Origin: Clostridiales bacterium | GTDB lineage: Bacteria > Bacillota > Clostridia > Oscillospirales > Acutalibacteraceae | Assembly (NCBI GenBank): GCA_022799115.1 | Contig: JAAWNT010000002.1 | Location: 62,001 to 126,000 of the forward strand | DNA length: 64,000 nt | Direction: 5' to 3' | Translations under genes and position numbers: made by a program | Part shown: one piece after another, positions 27,649 to 58,727 of the stretch | Numbering within the stretch: position 1 is the stretch's first letter | Layout of the letters: each line of letters opens with the position of its first letter | The notes under the pieces: model-generated | The model's database searches: none | What the model was told of the DNA's origin: nothing | The model's input: the letters and a program-made list of their open reading frames with translations, nothing else

Positions 27649-27715
27649 AAATTCTTAAGCTCCGTCTTTTTTGACAGAGACGGAGAAGTGCAACCAAACC
27701 TTTGGAGGTGTCCTC

Positions 27716-28852
27716 GTGAATACGGTTTATTTGGATAACAGCGCCACCACCCAAGTGTGCCGCCCTGCGGCCGATAAGGTGATGGAGCTGATGGTGGAGA
27801 AATACGGGAATCCGTCCTCGCTGCACACCATGGGCTATGAGGCGGAACGGGAGGTCGCCGCAGCGCGGGAGGCGGTGGCCAATATACTGGGGGCAAAGCC
27901 CAGAGAGATCACCTTTACCTCCGGGGGAACCGAGGCCAACAACCTGGCTTTGCTGGGCGCGGCGCATGCCAGAAGGCGTATGGGCAGCCGCATTGTCACC
28001 ACCTCTATCGAGCATCCCTCGGTGCTTGCCGCCGTGCAGCAGCTGGAGAAACAGGGATTTGAGGCGGTATACATACATCCCGGCGCTGACGGAACGGTGG
28101 ATCCCGAGCAATTGGACCGCGCGGTGAATACGGATACGATCCTTGTCAGTATGATGTGGGTGAATAACGAGGTGGGATCCATCCAGCCGGTGGACCAGGT
28201 GAAACGGATCATCAAACGTAAAAAAGCGCCCGCCTTGTTTCATGTGGACGCGGTGCAGGCGTTTGGAAAGCTGCCAGTGAAACCCGCCAAGCTGGGCATT
28301 GACTTGATGACGGTGAGCGGACATAAGATTCACGCCCCAAAAGGGACCGGCGCTCTGTATGTGGGAGAAGGGGCGCGTATTTTACCCCATACCTTTGGGG
28401 GCGGACAGGAGAGCGGCCTGCGTCCGGGCACGGAGGCGGCCCCTCTGATCGCGGGATTGGGCGCGGCGGTGAAAGCCCTCCCGGATACCATGGAGCAGCT
28501 CCAACAAATGAAGGAGCTGCGGGATTATACAAGAGAGCGGCTGTTGGGTCTGCCCGGGGTGGAGATCAACTCCCCGGAGGGCGGTCTGCCTTATTTGCTG
28601 AATTTCTCGGCGACGGGGATCCGCAGCGAAACCATGCTGCATCATTTGGCCTCCAAGGGGATATTTGTATCCAGCGGATCGGCCTGTGCCAAAGGGAAAT
28701 TGAGCCATGTGCTGGAATCCATGGGCTTGTCCCCCGACCGCATCATTTCCGCGATCCGGGTGAGCTTTTCCCGGATGAACACCCGGGAAGACGCGGACGC
28801 GCTCGTAAGAGGAGTGTCCGAGGGAATGGAGGTTCTGGCCCGGGCTAAGTGA
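27716..28852 (+). CDS. Cysteine desulfurase (IscS/NifS family)
   Basis: A 378-residue PLP enzyme that takes sulfur from cysteine as a persulfide. The N-terminus is VYLDNSATTQV. PLP-binding landmarks are TSGGTEANNLAL, the HVDAVQAFGK Asp/Gln region and SGHKIHAPKGTGALYV with the Schiff-base Lys. The persulfide Cys is in SSGSACAKGKLSHVL. It starts at GTG 27716, eight bases after GGAGG. It is followed by thiI, so in this operon it most likely serves as the dedicated sulfur donor for tRNA 4-thiouridine, as NifZ does in Bacillus. Confidence 0.94.
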   Translation: MNTVYLDNSATTQVCRPAADKVMELMVEKYGNPSSLHTMGYEAEREVAAAREAVANILGAKPREITFTSGGTEANNLALLGAAHARRRMGSRIVTTSIEHPSVLAAVQQLEKQGFEAVYIHPGADGTVDPEQLDRAVNTDTILVSMMWVNNEVGSIQPVDQVKRIIKRKKAPALFHVDAVQAFGKLPVKPAKLGIDLMTVSGHKIHAPKGTGALYVGEGARILPHTFGGGQESGLRPGTEAAPLIAGLGAAVKALPDTMEQLQQMKELRDYTRERLLGLPGVEINSPEGGLPYLLNFSATGIRSETMLHHLASKGIFVSSGSACAKGKLSHVLESMGLSPDRIISAIRVSFSRMNTREDADALVRGVSEGMEVLARAK

Positions 28853-28943: not shown

Positions 28944-30128
28944 ATGAAAGAATTAATTTTAATTAAAGACGGAGAGATCGCCCTCAAGGGACTCAATCGG
29001 AGGAATTTTGAGGACGCTCTTATGAAAAACATACGGTGGCGCATTGCCCCGCTGGGTTCCTTTGAAATACGCAGCGCCCAGTCTACCATATACGTCCGCC
29101 CTTTGAGCGAGGAAATTGATCTGGACGAGGCGGTGGAACGTATTTCCAAGGTGTTTGGCATCGCCTGTTTTTCCAGAGCTTGTATTGCCGATAAGGACAT
29201 GCAGTCCATTCAGAAGGCGGCCGTAGAGTATTTGAAGGAGGATTTGGAATCGGTATCCACATTTAAGGTCAATGCCAAACGGTCGGACAAGAGCTTTCCA
29301 TTGAACTCCCCCGCCATATGCAGCCAGCTGGGAGAATATTTGCTGGAGCAGTTTCCTCATTTGCAGGTGGACGTTCATAACCCGGAACTTACCGTTACCG
29401 TGGAGGTGCGGGATTTTGGCGCCTATGTGCGCGGCGGGGTGATCCCTGGAGCGGGAGGAATCCCGGTGGGCACCGGCGGCAAGGCGGCCATTTTGATTTC
29501 CGGAGGAATCGACAGCCCGGTGGCGGCTTATATGATGGCGAAACGAGGCGTAGAGCTCACAGCGATACACTTTGCAAGCCCACCATATACCAGCGAGCGG
29601 GCAGAAGAAAAGGTGCGCCAGCTTCTGCGGCGGGTGGCGGCCTACAGCGGACGTATTGTGATGTACACGGCGCCGTTTTCCCACATCCAGGAGGAGATTC
29701 GGGAAAAATGCCCGGAGGAGCTGTTTACCATTATCATGCGCCGCATGATGATGAAAATTTCCCAGCGCATCGCCCAAGCAAACGGCTGCGGCGCGCTGAT
29801 TACCGGGGAAAGCTTGGGCCAGGTGGCCAGCCAGACCTTACAGGCCATCGCCTGTACCGACGCGGCGTGTACCATGCCGGTATTCCGTCCTTTGATCGGG
29901 ATGGACAAGGAGGAGATCATTGGGATCTCCCGGAAAATCGATACGTTTGAGATCTCGATTCAGCCCTATGAGGATTGCTGCACGGTGTTTACCCCCAGGC
30001 ATCCCCGTACAAAACCGGTACTCAAGTTTGTGGAGCAGGCGGAAAGCGCCATGGACTGTCAGGCCCTGATTGAAGAAGCGGTGGAGCAAACGAAATTTAT
30101 AAAAATAGACGATTCATTTCCCGGTTAA
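28944..30128 (+). CDS. thiI: tRNA 4-thiouridine synthase ThiI
   Basis: A 394-residue enzyme with an N-terminal ferredoxin-like domain, a THUMP RNA-binding domain (about residues 60-165) and an adenylating PP-loop domain (SGGIDSP from Ser186). ITGESLGQVASQT and RPLIGMDKEEI are further ThiI landmarks. It activates uridine 8 of tRNA with ATP and accepts sulfur from the upstream desulfurase. It lacks the C-terminal rhodanese domain of E. coli ThiI, as usual in Firmicutes. ATG 28944, 91 bases after the desulfurase gene; the ribosome site is modest. Confidence 0.95.
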   Translation: MKELILIKDGEIALKGLNRRNFEDALMKNIRWRIAPLGSFEIRSAQSTIYVRPLSEEIDLDEAVERISKVFGIACFSRACIADKDMQSIQKAAVEYLKEDLESVSTFKVNAKRSDKSFPLNSPAICSQLGEYLLEQFPHLQVDVHNPELTVTVEVRDFGAYVRGGVIPGAGGIPVGTGGKAAILISGGIDSPVAAYMMAKRGVELTAIHFASPPYTSERAEEKVRQLLRRVAAYSGRIVMYTAPFSHIQEEIREKCPEELFTIIMRRMMMKISQRIAQANGCGALITGESLGQVASQTLQAIACTDAACTMPVFRPLIGMDKEEIIGISRKIDTFEISIQPYEDCCTVFTPRHPRTKPVLKFVEQAESAMDCQALIEEAVEQTKFIKIDDSFPG

Positions 30129-30223: not shown

Positions 30224-31321
30224 ATGAACCAGAATGAAAACGGAAAAGCGCAGGAGATTATGGAACAGCAGACGCCCAAGAAGAAAAAGCGCTGCTTTTT
30301 GGCGGCAATTTTTCCATGGAAAGGGGACCGCTTTGGAGAAGGGCTGAGAAAAATTGTGCTGCTCGTCGCCTTGATTACCTTGGTGGTATGCGGGGGACAG
30401 CTGCTTTACGAATCGGTTTACCTTCCCATGCAAAGCGACAGCGCCATGAACAACATCCAAAGCTTGTACCGCCCGGGAAATACCTCTTCCCAGCCCGATG
30501 GAACGGGGAGCGGGGATGGAGACGGGCAGTCCAAAGAGCCGGTTAAGGACAGCGAGGGACGGCTGGAGAAATTCCTGCCTTTGCTGGAAAAGAACAGCGA
30601 TATTAAAGGGTGGGTTACTGTTCCCAACACGGTGATTGATTATCCGGTGCTGCAATCGGAAAAGGATTTGGACATTCAGCCCGGCGGGAATGAAACCTAC
30701 TTGTATACAGATTATGAGGGAAACCACACCAAATATGGAAGTATCTTTATGGACGCCCATTGCGACGTCCGAAACTGCAAAAACATAATTTTACATGGGC
30801 ACCACATGAGGGATGGCCGTATGTTTGCAAACCTGATGAATTATTCCAATTTGGACTTTTATCAAAAAAGCCCGGTAATCACCTTTGACACCCTCTATGA
30901 GGAAGCCCAGTGGAAGGTGATCGCCGTTATCAAGACCAACACCAAAACAGAGCAGGGAGAACCCTTTCAATATCTGCGCTACTCCTTTGCGGACGACTCC
31001 GATTTCCTCAATTATGTCTATCAGGTGAGGGAGCGCTCTCTCTTTGATTTCCCTGTGGATGTAAACGAGAATGACCAGTTGATTACTTTGTCCACCTGCT
31101 CTTATGAATTCGACGAGTTCCGCACGGCGGTAATCGCCCGAAAGGTGCGTCCGGGAGAGGACGCCGGAGTGGATGTTTCAAAAGCCGTCAAAAATCCCGA
31201 TCCTTTGATGCCGGATGTGTGGTACAATCGGTATGGCGGGACCAAACCCCAGCTGACTACCTTTGAAGAGGCGCTGGAAGGCGGGGCGATCTCCTGGTAT
31301 CAGGCTCCGGGAGAGCAATAA
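30224..31321 (+). CDS. Class B sortase
   Basis: A 365-residue membrane-anchored transpeptidase. A basic cytosolic start (PKKKKRC) precedes one TM segment (about residues 44-64), a Gly/Ser/Asp-rich linker (about 88-110) and the sortase beta-barrel. The catalytic His lies in ILHGHHMRDG (around 191-194), Cys292 in TLSTCSYEF and Arg300 in FDEFRTAV. The insertion before the Cys and the TLSTC context fit class B. It should attach proteins with a sorting signal to the wall, but no LPXTG or NPQTN-type substrate is encoded nearby. ATG 30224 follows GGAGG by eight bases. A C-terminal extension after the Arg (about 60 residues) is longer than usual. Confidence 0.9.
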   Translation: MNQNENGKAQEIMEQQTPKKKKRCFLAAIFPWKGDRFGEGLRKIVLLVALITLVVCGGQLLYESVYLPMQSDSAMNNIQSLYRPGNTSSQPDGTGSGDGDGQSKEPVKDSEGRLEKFLPLLEKNSDIKGWVTVPNTVIDYPVLQSEKDLDIQPGGNETYLYTDYEGNHTKYGSIFMDAHCDVRNCKNIILHGHHMRDGRMFANLMNYSNLDFYQKSPVITFDTLYEEAQWKVIAVIKTNTKTEQGEPFQYLRYSFADDSDFLNYVYQVRERSLFDFPVDVNENDQLITLSTCSYEFDEFRTAVIARKVRPGEDAGVDVSKAVKNPDPLMPDVWYNRYGGTKPQLTTFEEALEGGAISWYQAPGEQ

Positions 31322-31424: not shown

Positions 31425-32093
31425 TTGAACTGCGAATTGATTTTTTATCTGGCGCGCCGGACGGGTGAAAACCAGGACGCGCTTTCAAACGTGCTGTCCA
31501 GAGTGGGGCTGCGCGTCACCACGGTGGCCTTTGCCACCAATGAAAGCGAATTGTGCTACGCGCTGGCCCAGGCGGTGGACAACAGCAATCTGATCTTTGT
31601 GGTGGGCGGTTTGAGCGCCCCGGCATCTCAACACGTCAATACCATCCTTTCCCGGGCGCTTACCATCCCCTTAAGAGAGGACGCCGGGGGAGAACCGGCG
31701 CTCAAGGGGGCGGGAATCCTGTACAACACCCACGGGGCCAACGGATATGTGTTGGAAAGCGGCCGTCAGGCCATAGTAATTCTGCCCGACGCGGCCCCGC
31801 AGATCACCGATCTGACCAGCGGAAGCCTGCTTCACTACCTGTGTAGAAAATACGGCCTCAATATGCGGAAACAGCTGGCGCCGCCCCAAGGCTTGTTCGC
31901 GCTGGAAAGCCAGCAGGACGCCCGGGAGGAAGAGGAGAAAGACCTTCGTTCCGTCCCCGTGACTGCCGCTCAAGTGGGAGGACGCGTCAAAAAAAGGCTG
32001 CCGTTGGGCGCAAAAATACTATTGCTGCTGGTCGCCGCGGCGGCGGTGGCGGGAGGCGTTTTCTTAATACACAACGGCCTTCAATGGTTTTAG
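31425..32093 (+). CDS. Membrane-anchored CinA N-domain-like (MoCF-fold) protein, degenerate
   Basis: A 222-residue protein whose first 150 residues follow the layout of the CinA N-terminal (molybdopterin-binding-like) domain, judged against the full CinA at 56957-58210. LSNVLSRVGLRVTTVAFATNE lines up with the LSRELAKLGIDVYH region and NLIFVVGGLSAPASQ with DLIITTGGLGPTYDD. GAGILYNTHGANGYVLES lines up with the GAIVLQNKNGTAPGLIVEE-type block, and QAIVILPDAAPQ with AVVLLPGPPRE. The functional GGLGPTxDD and PGPP motifs are altered, so catalysis is doubtful. A basic linker and one TM helix (about 196-216) close the protein, leaving the domain in the cytosol. Start is TTG 31425, nine bases after GGGGG. 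It follows sortase B. Confidence 0.65.
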   Translation: MNCELIFYLARRTGENQDALSNVLSRVGLRVTTVAFATNESELCYALAQAVDNSNLIFVVGGLSAPASQHVNTILSRALTIPLREDAGGEPALKGAGILYNTHGANGYVLESGRQAIVILPDAAPQITDLTSGSLLHYLCRKYGLNMRKQLAPPQGLFALESQQDAREEEEKDLRSVPVTAAQVGGRVKKRLPLGAKILLLLVAAAAVAGGVFLIHNGLQWF

Positions 32094-32132
32094 TTGACAG
32101 TAATAGATCCTATAAGAAAAGAGGGGGATGTC

Positions 32133-32678
32133 ATGGAGCTGCAAGCGGAGATTATCCATACGGTGAGCTGCGCCATTGTGGAGCAGCTCAGGCAGCGGAA
32201 AATCACAGAACCGGTTTATGGATTGATTGTAACCTATAGCGTACAAGAAGAGGATGAACTGTGCCCTTGGATTGCGGTGGGCGCCCAGCGGGAGAGGGAG
32301 GAAATTCTCCGCAGGGAACCCAGTCCCGGCTTGGTTTTATGGGATGGAGAATATCTGGAATCCTTTGATCCGGTGGAATCCCTTTTGGAAAACGGGGAAT
32401 TTCTGGATCAATGTGCGTTATGGAAACAACAGGCCCACGCGGGGGAACATGCGGAACTGCTCATTACCGCCCTGATGCAGCGCGTTTGCTTTGCGCTCAT
32501 GAAAACGGATTGGAAGTCTGTTTTTCCCATTACCGAGGATTTTGTGATTGCCGCCTGTACCTATGAGGGGGATTGGCTGATAGATAATATGAGCGTTCTG
32601 GCGGGGAACGAAACGGTGGAGCGGTTTCTGGAAAACGGTTATCTATGTTCCCGCAGCCTGGACAGGGAAGAGGAGTAA
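32133..32678 (+). CDS. Hypothetical soluble protein
   Basis: A 181-residue acidic protein I do not recognise. It is helical at both ends with a central strand-rich part (EPVYGLIVTYSVQEED, CPWIAVGAQRERE). The layout is reminiscent of small DUF families of the immunity or SMI1-like kind, but I cannot assign one. ATG 32133 follows GAGGGGG with five bases between; the longer frame from 32094 starts at TTG without a site. It lies 40 bases after the CinA-like gene and ends at a strong terminator, so the run from sortase to here is probably one transcript. Confidence 0.6.
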   Translation: MELQAEIIHTVSCAIVEQLRQRKITEPVYGLIVTYSVQEEDELCPWIAVGAQREREEILRREPSPGLVLWDGEYLESFDPVESLLENGEFLDQCALWKQQAHAGEHAELLITALMQRVCFALMKTDWKSVFPITEDFVIAACTYEGDWLIDNMSVLAGNETVERFLENGYLCSRSLDREEE

Positions 32679-32717
32679 GGAAACCCGGCCGCCCGTTGTG
32701 ACAGAAAAGTTCCAAAG

Positions 32718-32753
32718 CAAAAGCCCTATGGATTTTTATCCATAGGGCTTTTT
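32718..32753. terminator. Strong bidirectional terminator
   Basis: AAAAGCCCTATGGA pairs perfectly with TCCATAGGGCTTTT around six bases. A and T runs on both sides serve the convergent genes at 32133 (plus) and 32787 (minus). Confidence 0.95.
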
Positions 32754-32786
32754 GCTTGCGTTTATGGTATACAAATCCGTTTCAGG

Positions 32787-56956: not shown

Positions 56957-58210
56957 CTATCTTTGCAGCCGCCGTATGGTTTGCAGCGCCAGAAAGAGCG
57001 CGTGAGAGGAGGCGAGCCAGCGGATCAGCTCCCGCTCGTCGGGATACCCTCGGCTGAGCCTGAGCTCCAAAACCTCACGATGCCAGTCGCTGTCCACTCC
57101 CACATAGACAAGGCCTACGGGCTTATCCTTCGTGCCCCCGTCGGGGCCCGCGATGCCGGTGGTGGAGATGCCGATATCCGCATGAGACAACCGGCGCGCG
57201 CCGGCGGCCAGCTCGGCGGCGGTCTGCCGGGATACCGCGCCGTATCGGGCCAGCGTATCTTCAGAAACTCCCACCACGCGCCGCTTGATCTCGTTGGAGT
57301 AACAGCATATGCCGCAGTCAAATACCTGGGATGCGCCGGGAATTTCGGTGATTCGTTTGGAGATCAGTCCGCCGGTGCAGCTCTCCGCCGAGGCAAGCTT
57401 CTTATGATTTTCAGAGAGTGCCTGCACCACGGCGTTTTGCAGGGAGCCGGAATCCACCCCATATACGGCGTCGCCCAGCAGGTCGCTTACCTCGCTAAGA
57501 AGCGGCCGGATCATGGCGTCAGCGTGGGAAGCATCCTCAGCGGAAGCCGTGATCCGCAGCAGCATTTCCCCGTCTTTTGCATAGGGGGCGATGGTGGGAT
57601 TTTTCAGCTGTTCCATACGATCCCGCAGCATGCTCTCCACTTGGGATTCTCCCAGCCCAAATATATGGATGTTATGGGATACCAGCGTTGTTTGCGCGTC
57701 CCTGCGCAGATATGGCAGTACCCCTTCCAAAAACATGGGTTTCATTTCTCTGGGCGGGCCGGGCAGCAGCACCACTGCCTTCCCGTTTTCCTCTACAATC
57801 AGGCCGGGCGCGGTTCCGTTTTTATTTTGCAGCACAATGGCGCCCTTAGGCATCACGGCCTGTTTTTTGTTGTTGTCGGTCATGGGCCGGTCGATCCGCG
57901 CGAAAAAGGATTTGATCTCCTGCAGGGATGTTTCGTTGAGTTCCATCGGCAGGCCGAACAGCTCGGCCACAGTCTCTTTGGTGATATCGTCATAGGTGGG
58001 ACCAAGACCGCCGGTGGTGATAATCAAATCGCTTTGCTCCATGGCGTGCGCAAGGCAGGATTTCAAACGCTCTGAGTTGTCGCCCACTACGGATTGGTGA
58101 TAAACGTCAATGCCGAGCTTGGCAAGCTCCCTTGACAAAAACACCGCGTTGGTGTTCACAATGTCCCCCAGCAGCAGCTCGGTGCCTACGCATAGGATTT
58201 CCGCTTTCAT
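56957..58210 (-). CDS. cinA: CinA competence/damage-inducible protein
   Basis: A 417-residue CinA with both domains. The N-terminal MoCF-like domain carries VGTELLLGDIVNTN, TTGGLGPTYDDITKE and LLPGPPREM; the C-terminal nicotinamide-nucleotide amidase domain has ASAESCTGG, CYSNEIKRRVVGV and STTGIAGPDGGT. CinA hydrolyses nicotinamide mononucleotide and damaged dinucleotides. ATG 58210 follows GGGGG by seven bases. It is monocistronic. It also serves as the in-window reference for the shortened CinA-like protein at 31425. Confidence 0.95.
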   Translation of the reverse strand: MKAEILCVGTELLLGDIVNTNAVFLSRELAKLGIDVYHQSVVGDNSERLKSCLAHAMEQSDLIITTGGLGPTYDDITKETVAELFGLPMELNETSLQEIKSFFARIDRPMTDNNKKQAVMPKGAIVLQNKNGTAPGLIVEENGKAVVLLPGPPREMKPMFLEGVLPYLRRDAQTTLVSHNIHIFGLGESQVESMLRDRMEQLKNPTIAPYAKDGEMLLRITASAEDASHADAMIRPLLSEVSDLLGDAVYGVDSGSLQNAVVQALSENHKKLASAESCTGGLISKRITEIPGASQVFDCGICCYSNEIKRRVVGVSEDTLARYGAVSRQTAAELAAGARRLSHADIGISTTGIAGPDGGTKDKPVGLVYVGVDSDWHREVLELRLSRGYPDERELIRWLASSHALFLALQTIRRLQR

Positions 58211-58727
58211 AGAAATACCCCCTGTACTTTTGCATATACTAAACAAACCGGCGGACGCCTCGGCAACGGCGTTCCGCGGTTTTTCCTATCATTAGATTCA
58301 CTCTATCACATTGCTGCGCGTTTTGCAACGTCTCTCAAAGGCCGTATTTTCCAATGGAATCGGAACCGGCGTGACCGGTTTAACCGATAAGACCGGGAGC
58401 GGTCCTCCGGCTTGAAAAACGGAAGGTTCCCGCCGCGTGTTCTCGAGGAGGAAAACACGCAAGCGCCGTTTCCCAAGCGGCTAGGGCGTTTGCAAACGTG
58501 TTTCCTCCTCCTTGCTGTTTGCCGCAGCCGGCAATTCCTGGTTCAGCCGCGCAGCCCCCAAAAAAGCAGCCGTTTTATTAAGGATTGCCAATTGCGGAGC
58601 GAATATGGCTTGCTCATCAACAGTTCATCGTTTCTTAACAAAATCTGAAACGCCGTAGGCTACAATGAAGCTATCCTTAGTTGGCTAATAATTAGCTGCC
58701 TAACAGTATGAAAAGAGGTGCGGTGGT
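58211..58727. other. Divergent intergenic region with a long hairpin
   Basis: A 517-base gap between cinA and a MarR gene. Besides the operator at 58677-58703 and a TACAAT box at 58661-58666, it holds a long imperfect hairpin (58446-58511). There GGAGGAAA-CACG and GCGCC on the left pair with GGCG and CGTG-TTTCCTCC on the right. No open frame is convincing, so a small RNA or a structured leader are both possible. Confidence 0.5.
58677..58703 (+). promoter_or_regulatory. Tandem MarR-type operator
   Basis: Two 12-bp boxes, TTAGTTGGCTAA (58677-58688) and TTAGCTGCCTAA (58692-58703), each with palindromic TTAG/CTAA ends, three bases apart. They lie just after the -10 box and 25 bases before the MarR start, suggesting autorepression. 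Confidence 0.7.

Follow-up and report, generated by a model that had tools for sequence, protein, structure and literature searches.

A degenerate CinA N-domain paralogue with a membrane helix, encoded beside a class B sortase in a Clostridiales bacterium

Gephyrin and Glp are described in PMC11733289 as MoCF-fold enzymes reused as scaffolds at the inner membrane; Glp, an actinobacterial paralogue of MoeA, has a degraded active site and is proposed to organize a network at the corynebacterial septum together with the membrane protein GlpR. CinA, an enzyme of NAD recycling, has an N-terminal domain (COG1058, ADP-ribose pyrophosphatase) of the same fold, followed by KH and NMN deamidase domains. 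Signature motifs of COG1058 given in PMC3680494 are GXEX3G and GGL/IGPX3D. For T. thermophilus CinA, PMC4246079 places Asp76, Asp45, and Glu12 at the Mg site and Glu156 at the ribose and reports that the COG1058 domains dimerize, with rotation of the dimer proposed as part of catalysis. Occasional fusions of CinA to other domains are noted in PMC3855486, whose main text does not contain the word “sortase”, and a SpoIID-like protein appears in PMC4877998 as a possible sortase substrate, a different matter from fusion. Here, we describe CinL (a name coined here), a 222-residue protein encoded beside a class B sortase gene (SrtB) in a Clostridiales bacterium of the Acutalibacteraceae, and its relatives in that family.

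The window (the whole stretch of DNA analyzed, 64,000 nucleotides) belongs to a genome of 2.4 Mb in 71 contigs. CinL lies between the SrtB gene and a third gene, P3 (Table 1), and its first residues are the same in the same-genus homologue, L004. Four sortases of this genome match PF04203; because the other three stretches score at most 15.9 bits with the SrtB profile, the SrtB beside CinL appears to be the sole class B enzyme. The genome also has two SpoIID matches, both at other places. The full-length CinA, which the earlier note had also seen, is encoded about 25 kb from CinL, outside the thiI cluster; no second CinA amidase match was found in this genome. The hairpin after P3 is a likely terminator of the unit; a terminator scan listed no site between SrtB and CinL but missed this strong hairpin too.

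Table 1. Features of the window (nucleotide positions counted from its first letter; residues are those of CinL)
Feature	Position	Strand	Details
NifS/IscS-type cysteine desulfurase	27671-28852	+	Upstream of thiI in most surveyed loci
ThiI	28944-30128	+	TIGR00342, 377.5 bits; anchor of conserved cluster
SrtB, class B sortase	30224-31321	+	TIGR03064, 169.6 bits (cut-off 153.75); His/Cys/Arg triad intact
SrtB cytosolic juxtamembrane motif PWKGDRFGEGLRK	30314-30352	+	
CinL	31425-32093	+	TTG start, 222 aa; degenerate CinA N-domain (MoCF fold) and C-terminal transmembrane (TM) helix
CinL parts	Residues ~1-150; 150-191; then TM helix		MoCF domain; low-confidence linker; C-terminal TM helix
TM helix of CinL	32016-32072	+	Residues ~198-216
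P3 (third gene)	32133-32678	+	181 aa from ATG
Hairpin and U-run	32715-32757	+	-28.8 kcal/mol; z -7.5 vs shuffles
Full-length CinA	56957-58246 (ORF); 56957-58210 from ATG 58210	-	Motifs intact

P3, which the earlier note had counted as part of the sortase transcript, does not belong to the core of the cluster, because it is present in only 2 of 120 family genomes (that of the window and G029), both times directly after CinL. Its start is more probably the ATG at 32133 than the TTG at 32094, with the ribosome site judged by eye. A counterpart lies at L015:8816-9391, and the contig of the congener L004 stops before that place. The Pfam match to DMP12 is weak (E value, 0.005; below cut-off), NCBIfam gave no match, and the AlphaFold model is poor (pLDDT, 40.8).

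CinL was compared with known families by sequence, profile, and predicted structure. Its match to Pfam PF00994 (E value, 0.001; 19.2 bits) is below the gathering cut-off of 26.6; no Pfam or NCBIfam family reached its cut-off, and neither PF18146 (KH) nor PF02464 (amidase) matched in Pfam. We built a profile, A1, from 11 CinL homologue sequences, of which the other ten gave PF00994 and, once, MscS_TM in Pfam, with E values never better than 0.0008; PF00994 reaches an E value of 0.01 in 3 of the 11 members. Searched against the PDB, A1 matched the solved CinA 6mr3 (E value, 3.4e-6), while phmmer with the single CinL sequence found no CinA there, and hhalign of A1 against five CinA N-domains gave a probability of 98.1 (E value, 1.3e-13). 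CinL also matches the window's own CinA in BLASTP (E value, 4e-7; 25% identity). The AlphaFold2 model, based on a two-sequence alignment, is of low confidence (pLDDT, 56.8, and <50 for residues 150-191), and its last helix (194-221) is the TM segment. With this low-confidence model, the top six Foldseek rows were CinA (4ct8_A; E value, 3.8e-7), and VIA-align placed 141 residues on T. thermophilus CinA (4cta_A, residues 1-173; Z, 12.0; rmsd, 3.2), so the structural comparison proposed in the earlier note returned the MoCF/CinA fold.

A tree was computed from 78 rows, using 15 of 44 CinA; its bootstrap had not settled. It separates CinA from the rest (97/97) and sets apart CinL and, at 99/96, MoX, another degenerate MoCF-like domain, carried by active SrtB in 12 relatives. 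CinL falls in two blocks of 12 and 28 rows, whose joint origin is not supported by the tree, and MoX and several CinL rows are long branches. The window's CinL groups with L004 and L015, inside a block made up of 21 stand-alone copies. By profile, fold, and tree alike, the ancestry of CinL is the CinA N-domain (COG1058, MoCF fold), and a chance resemblance to MoCF is ruled out. Chance is also excluded because an unanchored search of 60 genomes, including the window's own, with the window's CinL as the query found a homologue in 11, each of them part of a thiI cluster that has an SrtB domain on the same strand.

The window's CinL reads GGLSAPASQ in place of GGLGPTxDD and PDAAPQ in place of PGPPxE, as expected of the motif-less paralogue proposed in the earlier note, which had rightly added that the amidase domain was dropped and a C-terminal TM helix gained. 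The Glu of the GXEX3G motif falls in an alignment gap, and Gln stands at the Glu156 position. Catalytic residues were then compared across 107 domains, with CinL represented by 25 rows classed as stand-alone and 15 fused. The Glu12 column is a gap in 40/40 CinL domains; Asp45 is retained in 2/40, Asp76 in 3/40, and Glu156 in 9/40 (8/25 stand-alone and 1/15 fused). Stand-alone copies mostly have PD.P for PGPP (Pro in 23/25, then Asp in 22/25). CinA rows were required to score >150 bits with the CinA N-domain profile, which leaves weaker ones (e.g., L050, L055, L060, and L068) outside the counts. All four residues are present in 11/11 CinA-sortase fusions with a well-scoring N-domain (L018, L023, L032, L039, L052, L053, L059, L067, L070, L074, and L094), and each in 43 or 44 of the 44 other CinA, where one row is gapped at two. 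The CinL family looks consistently non-enzymatic. Selection on it looks purifying: comparison of the window with L004 gives dN/dS values of 0.11 over the full gene and 0.15 over residues 1-145, next to 0.09 for SrtB and 0.06 for ThiI, with dS saturated in these comparisons. Three of the four (nearly) invariant columns of CinL, G107, I117, and L120, lie in the segment GYxxESGxQxIxxLPDxP.

Basic residues mark the cytosolic flank of a TM helix (the positive-inside rule). Five stand just before that of CinL (RVKKRLPLGAK), and the short tail after it holds no Lys or Arg; the protein is therefore predicted to be N-inside and C-outside, with the MoCF domain on the cytosolic side. Since the tail is about five to seven residues long, the window's CinL carries no outside domain. 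Where the locus holds SrtB, 26/34 CinL proteins have the helix; where it does not, 1/6 do (the one in L082). Of stand-alone CinL with SrtB, 8/20 have no helix. This association is not independent evidence, because the five TM-less copies without SrtB belong to one clade, together with L020 and L022 (SrtB present, TM absent), and it may reflect that clade.

The neighborhood survey was anchored on ThiI, present in 119/120 family genomes. Sixty loci were taken, largely in order of falling identity and away from contig ends; the addition of nine loci and L004, found through CinL, and of the window gave 71 loci, and same-family counts rest on the 64 with at least 6.5 kb after thiI. These hold cinA or its amidase part in 42 cases, SrtB in 47, CinL in 36, a CinA-sortase fusion in 11, MoX-SrtB in 11, and SpoIID in 15. 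Linkage of CinL homologues to sortases, which the earlier note had predicted, proved common but not exclusive: a class B sortase is found in 31/36 CinL loci, while 16/47 SrtB loci have no detectable CinL and 12 loci have neither. Over all 64 loci, which are related by descent, Fisher's p for the association is 0.012. When the ten loci chosen through CinL are set aside, 21/26 CinL loci and 16/28 CinL-less ones contain SrtB (p, 0.08), and the association is weak and not significant. With that value, and with loci related by descent, co-occurrence alone is modest evidence, and adjacency and fusion carry the case.

The exceptions place CinL next to CinA. CinL stands at the end of cinA, with no SrtB in the locus, in L030, L037, L041, and L045, and L036 has cinA-cinL with no SrtB seen on a contig that is cut short. 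CinL begins 6 to 55 bp after cinA in L030, L036, and L045; in L037 and L041 the longest ORFs of the two genes overlap, which leaves the true starts uncertain. Genomes G093 and G126 (97% and 100% complete) have cinA-cinL and no match to TIGR03064 or PF04203; in G115, G133, and G076, a class B sortase is encoded at another place in the genome, and L082 has only the fused dead-sortase form of CinL. Directly after CinL, the SrtB-less clusters of L037 (4533-6410) and L041 (6619-8505) encode a protein of 625 to 628 aa that, by eye, looks like a serine beta-lactamase-type hydrolase. As a separate observation, five loci (L032, L039, L040, L050, and L075) have a class B sortase gene directly upstream of thiI, a place taken by nifS in most of the others.

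For comparison, 40 loci were taken from 23 other families of the order, 38 of them long enough. In 27/38, cinA or its amidase part comes after thiI; SrtB is found in 8/38 (five families), a CinA-sortase fusion in 3/38, SpoIID in 5/38, and CinL in 0/38. From these 38 loci, the thiI-cinA arrangement looks old; SrtB seems to have joined it in several families, and CinL is seen only in the window's family. In L114 to L117 (family f25 of the same order), the CinA amidase domain alone, SrtB, and SpoIID are separate genes after thiI.

The main point was beyond the view of the earlier note, which had the window only: in relatives, CinA or degenerate N-domains are fused to SrtB or to a dead sortase with SpoIID, a lytic enzyme that acts on the wall during sporulation. 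In 11/64 same-family loci, a sortase domain is joined to CinA or to the amidase part of CinA. In L018, a CinA-TM-SrtB chain of 923 aa precedes a CinL-TM-dead sortase-SpoIID chain of 856 aa; the pair recurs in L023 (981 and 967 aa) and, in similar form, in L052 (963 and 818 aa). A single chain unites CinA, dead sortase, and SpoIID in L032, L039, and L050, and an SrtB gene immediately precedes thiI in these loci; the chain of L050 has the CinA amidase part with a weak N-domain. For L018 and L023, Pfam found MoCF, KH, CinA, and Sortase in the first chain and SpoIID (PF08486) in the second, where the dead sortase went undetected. The latter was assigned by BLASTP against the window's SrtB (32% identity, E value 3e-41; 33%, E value 6e-33) and by profiles seeded with those two sequences, and the L032, L039, and L050 chains were assigned by our own profiles only.

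Triads were counted for sortase domains of >100 bits only, which puts L082 outside. The triad is intact in 40/42 free SrtB, 12/12 MoX-SrtB, and 10/14 CinA-SrtB (L053, among the four failures, is truncated by a contig end), compared with 0/6 in the TM-dead-sortase group and 0/3 in the CinA-sortase-SpoIID chains. The TM-dead-sortase group (L018, L023, L052, L057, L059, and L070) follows a CinA-SrtB fusion or an SrtB gene, and 5/6 of its members are fused to SpoIID; over these last two groups, the triad is intact in 0/8 sortase domains that share a chain with SpoIID (five plus three). Dead sortases without SpoIID occur in L044, L055, L057, L073, and L075. CinA N-domain residues and sortase triad are both intact in eight chains (L018, L023, L052, L059, L067, L070, L074, and L094).

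MoX was assigned with a four-sequence profile (E value against CinA, 2.2e-8), with L047 alone against CinA (1.1e-7; for L047, matching to the degenerate set is circular), and with an HMM. Its homology to MoCF is less secure than that of CinL, because single-sequence hhalign matches to CinA were weak for most, a reversed-sequence control once reached an E value of 0.0095, and, of 26 N-extended SrtB without CinA amidase, the 14 not assigned to MoX gave no forward E value <0.078. Against the PDB, the MoX profile found nothing significant (best E value, 0.54; CinA 6mr3, 0.68). CinA is absent from the cluster in all 12 MoX-SrtB loci. Elsewhere in those genomes, it is present only as a short frame (187 to 212 aa) in six and as a full-length frame in four, and no CinA was found in two, one of them 59% complete. 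Two MoX-SrtB proteins (L019:2894-5146 and L021:8523-10937) carry two Big_2 (bacterial Ig-like) stretches at the C-terminus, which are, to our knowledge, unusual for a sortase.

Our leading explanation, which we put forward tentatively, is that CinL is a dead paralogue of the CinA N-domain reused as a membrane-tethered, non-enzymatic docking or oligomerization module. A duplicate of the N-terminal COG1058 domain of CinA would have lost catalysis, and the MoCF module would have been kept for binding; since COG1058 domains of CinA dimerize, a dead copy could pair with a live one. The C-terminal helix would tether CinL to the inner face of the membrane beside SrtB. There, pairing of CinL with another MoCF domain, from a second CinL or from CinA, would keep the sortase cluster together. 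Relatives hard-wire a similar arrangement, in a chain of CinA with intact N-domain residues and active SrtB and in one of CinL, TM, dead sortase, and SpoIID, so that the same module would reach the same place by different means: its own helix in the window, and fusion to SrtB or a dead sortase in relatives. The partner in the window might be SrtB, CinA, or CinL itself, and such contacts, if made, may affect wall anchoring. The juxtamembrane motif of SrtB may be a docking peptide; its P..GD form is present in 41/64 SrtB domains of loci with CinA/MoCF genes and in 0/5 without (Fisher's p, 0.009; loci related by descent, and one of the five, L040, cut by a contig end), but this is only a correlation. 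A role bound to sortase cannot be universal, because G093 and G126 keep cinA-cinL with no sortase match.

Those two genomes fit a second account, possible if doubtful, in which CinL is a pseudoenzyme subunit of CinA that pairs through the COG1058 dimer interface and tunes or localizes NAD recycling, the sortase being a later neighbor that received domains. It draws further on L030, L036, and L045, where CinL directly follows cinA with no SrtB seen, on the dimerization of COG1058 domains in T. thermophilus CinA (PMC4246079), and on the frequency of cinA or its amidase part after thiI in other families (27/38 loci); CinA may indeed be an older partner of CinL than SrtB. It sits less well with SrtB in 31/36 CinL loci and with the 12 MoX-SrtB clusters, which have no CinA: 6/12 of those genomes have only a short-frame CinA elsewhere, yet five of the six encode CinL, which has thus been kept where CinA seems to be without its N-domain.

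The fusions of working or dead CinA domains to sortases in relatives point to a protein complex spanning inside and outside at the cell wall, although CinA-SrtB fusions could be a mere result of the genes being neighbors. An extended version, which we consider unlikely, is a hetero-complex of two chains, active CinA-active sortase and dead CinA domain-dead sortase-SpoIID, that would couple the state of NAD recycling inside to protein anchoring and wall cutting outside. Both types of chain are complete in L018, L023, and L052; in the window, CinL would supply the cytosolic and membrane part of this pseudo-chain but no outer domains.

It is improbable that CinL is a sensor, with a nucleotide or a product of NAD breakdown bound in its degenerate pocket and a signal passed through the membrane to the sortase: CinA and SrtB do share one chain in several genera, and G107, I117, and L120 are kept in the GYxxESGxQxIxxLPDxP segment, but most CinA ligand-contact residues are lost and the window's helix ends in a tail of about five to seven residues with no outside domain. 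Least probable is a functionless, decaying fragment of a former CinA or CinA-SrtB gene in a merely conserved gene order, since, despite fast evolution (58% identity between congeners vs 85% for ThiI) and variable length (134 to 423 aa among rows classed as stand-alone), CinL is retained in 36/64 loci (26/54 of those not chosen through it), nearly all of different genera, has its own family-wide motifs, is recurrently fused to TM, dead-sortase, and SpoIID parts, and has dN/dS values of about 0.11 to 0.15 that, with dS saturated, also disfavor a pseudogene.

Should the docking-module explanation hold, CinA would follow MoeA/gephyrin/Glp as a second MoCF enzyme lineage made into a membrane scaffold, here beside a sortase; SrtB would gain an unexpected cytosolic partner, and a metabolic enzyme would be tied by direct fusion to cell-wall anchoring in clostridia. 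Searches of open-licence papers found no description of a sortase with a cytosolic CinA or MoCF domain, a CinA-sortase link, CinL, or a fusion of a (dead) sortase with SpoIID, and the combination appears new, its parts being known. CinL shares with CinA the MoCF fold, the homology of the N-domain, and, in relatives, the place after thiI; it differs in having no KH or amidase domain and no GXEX3G, GGL/IGPX3D, or PGPPxE motif, and in having a TM helix. The class B sortase loci are matched by its neighbor, a class B sortase with an intact triad. The window's CinL has no SpoIID (PF08486) domain; in L018 and L023, SpoIID forms the C-terminus of the CinL-TM-dead-sortase proteins and is thus joined to a cytosolic MoCF domain as well as to a dead sortase. 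Like Glp, CinL is a MoCF paralogue with a degraded active site; Glp and gephyrin, however, are MoeA-derived, have the four-domain MoeA architecture, and bind FtsZ/GlpR or receptors, whereas CinL, a relative of CinA, has a single MoCF domain and a TM helix of its own and is encoded beside SrtB.
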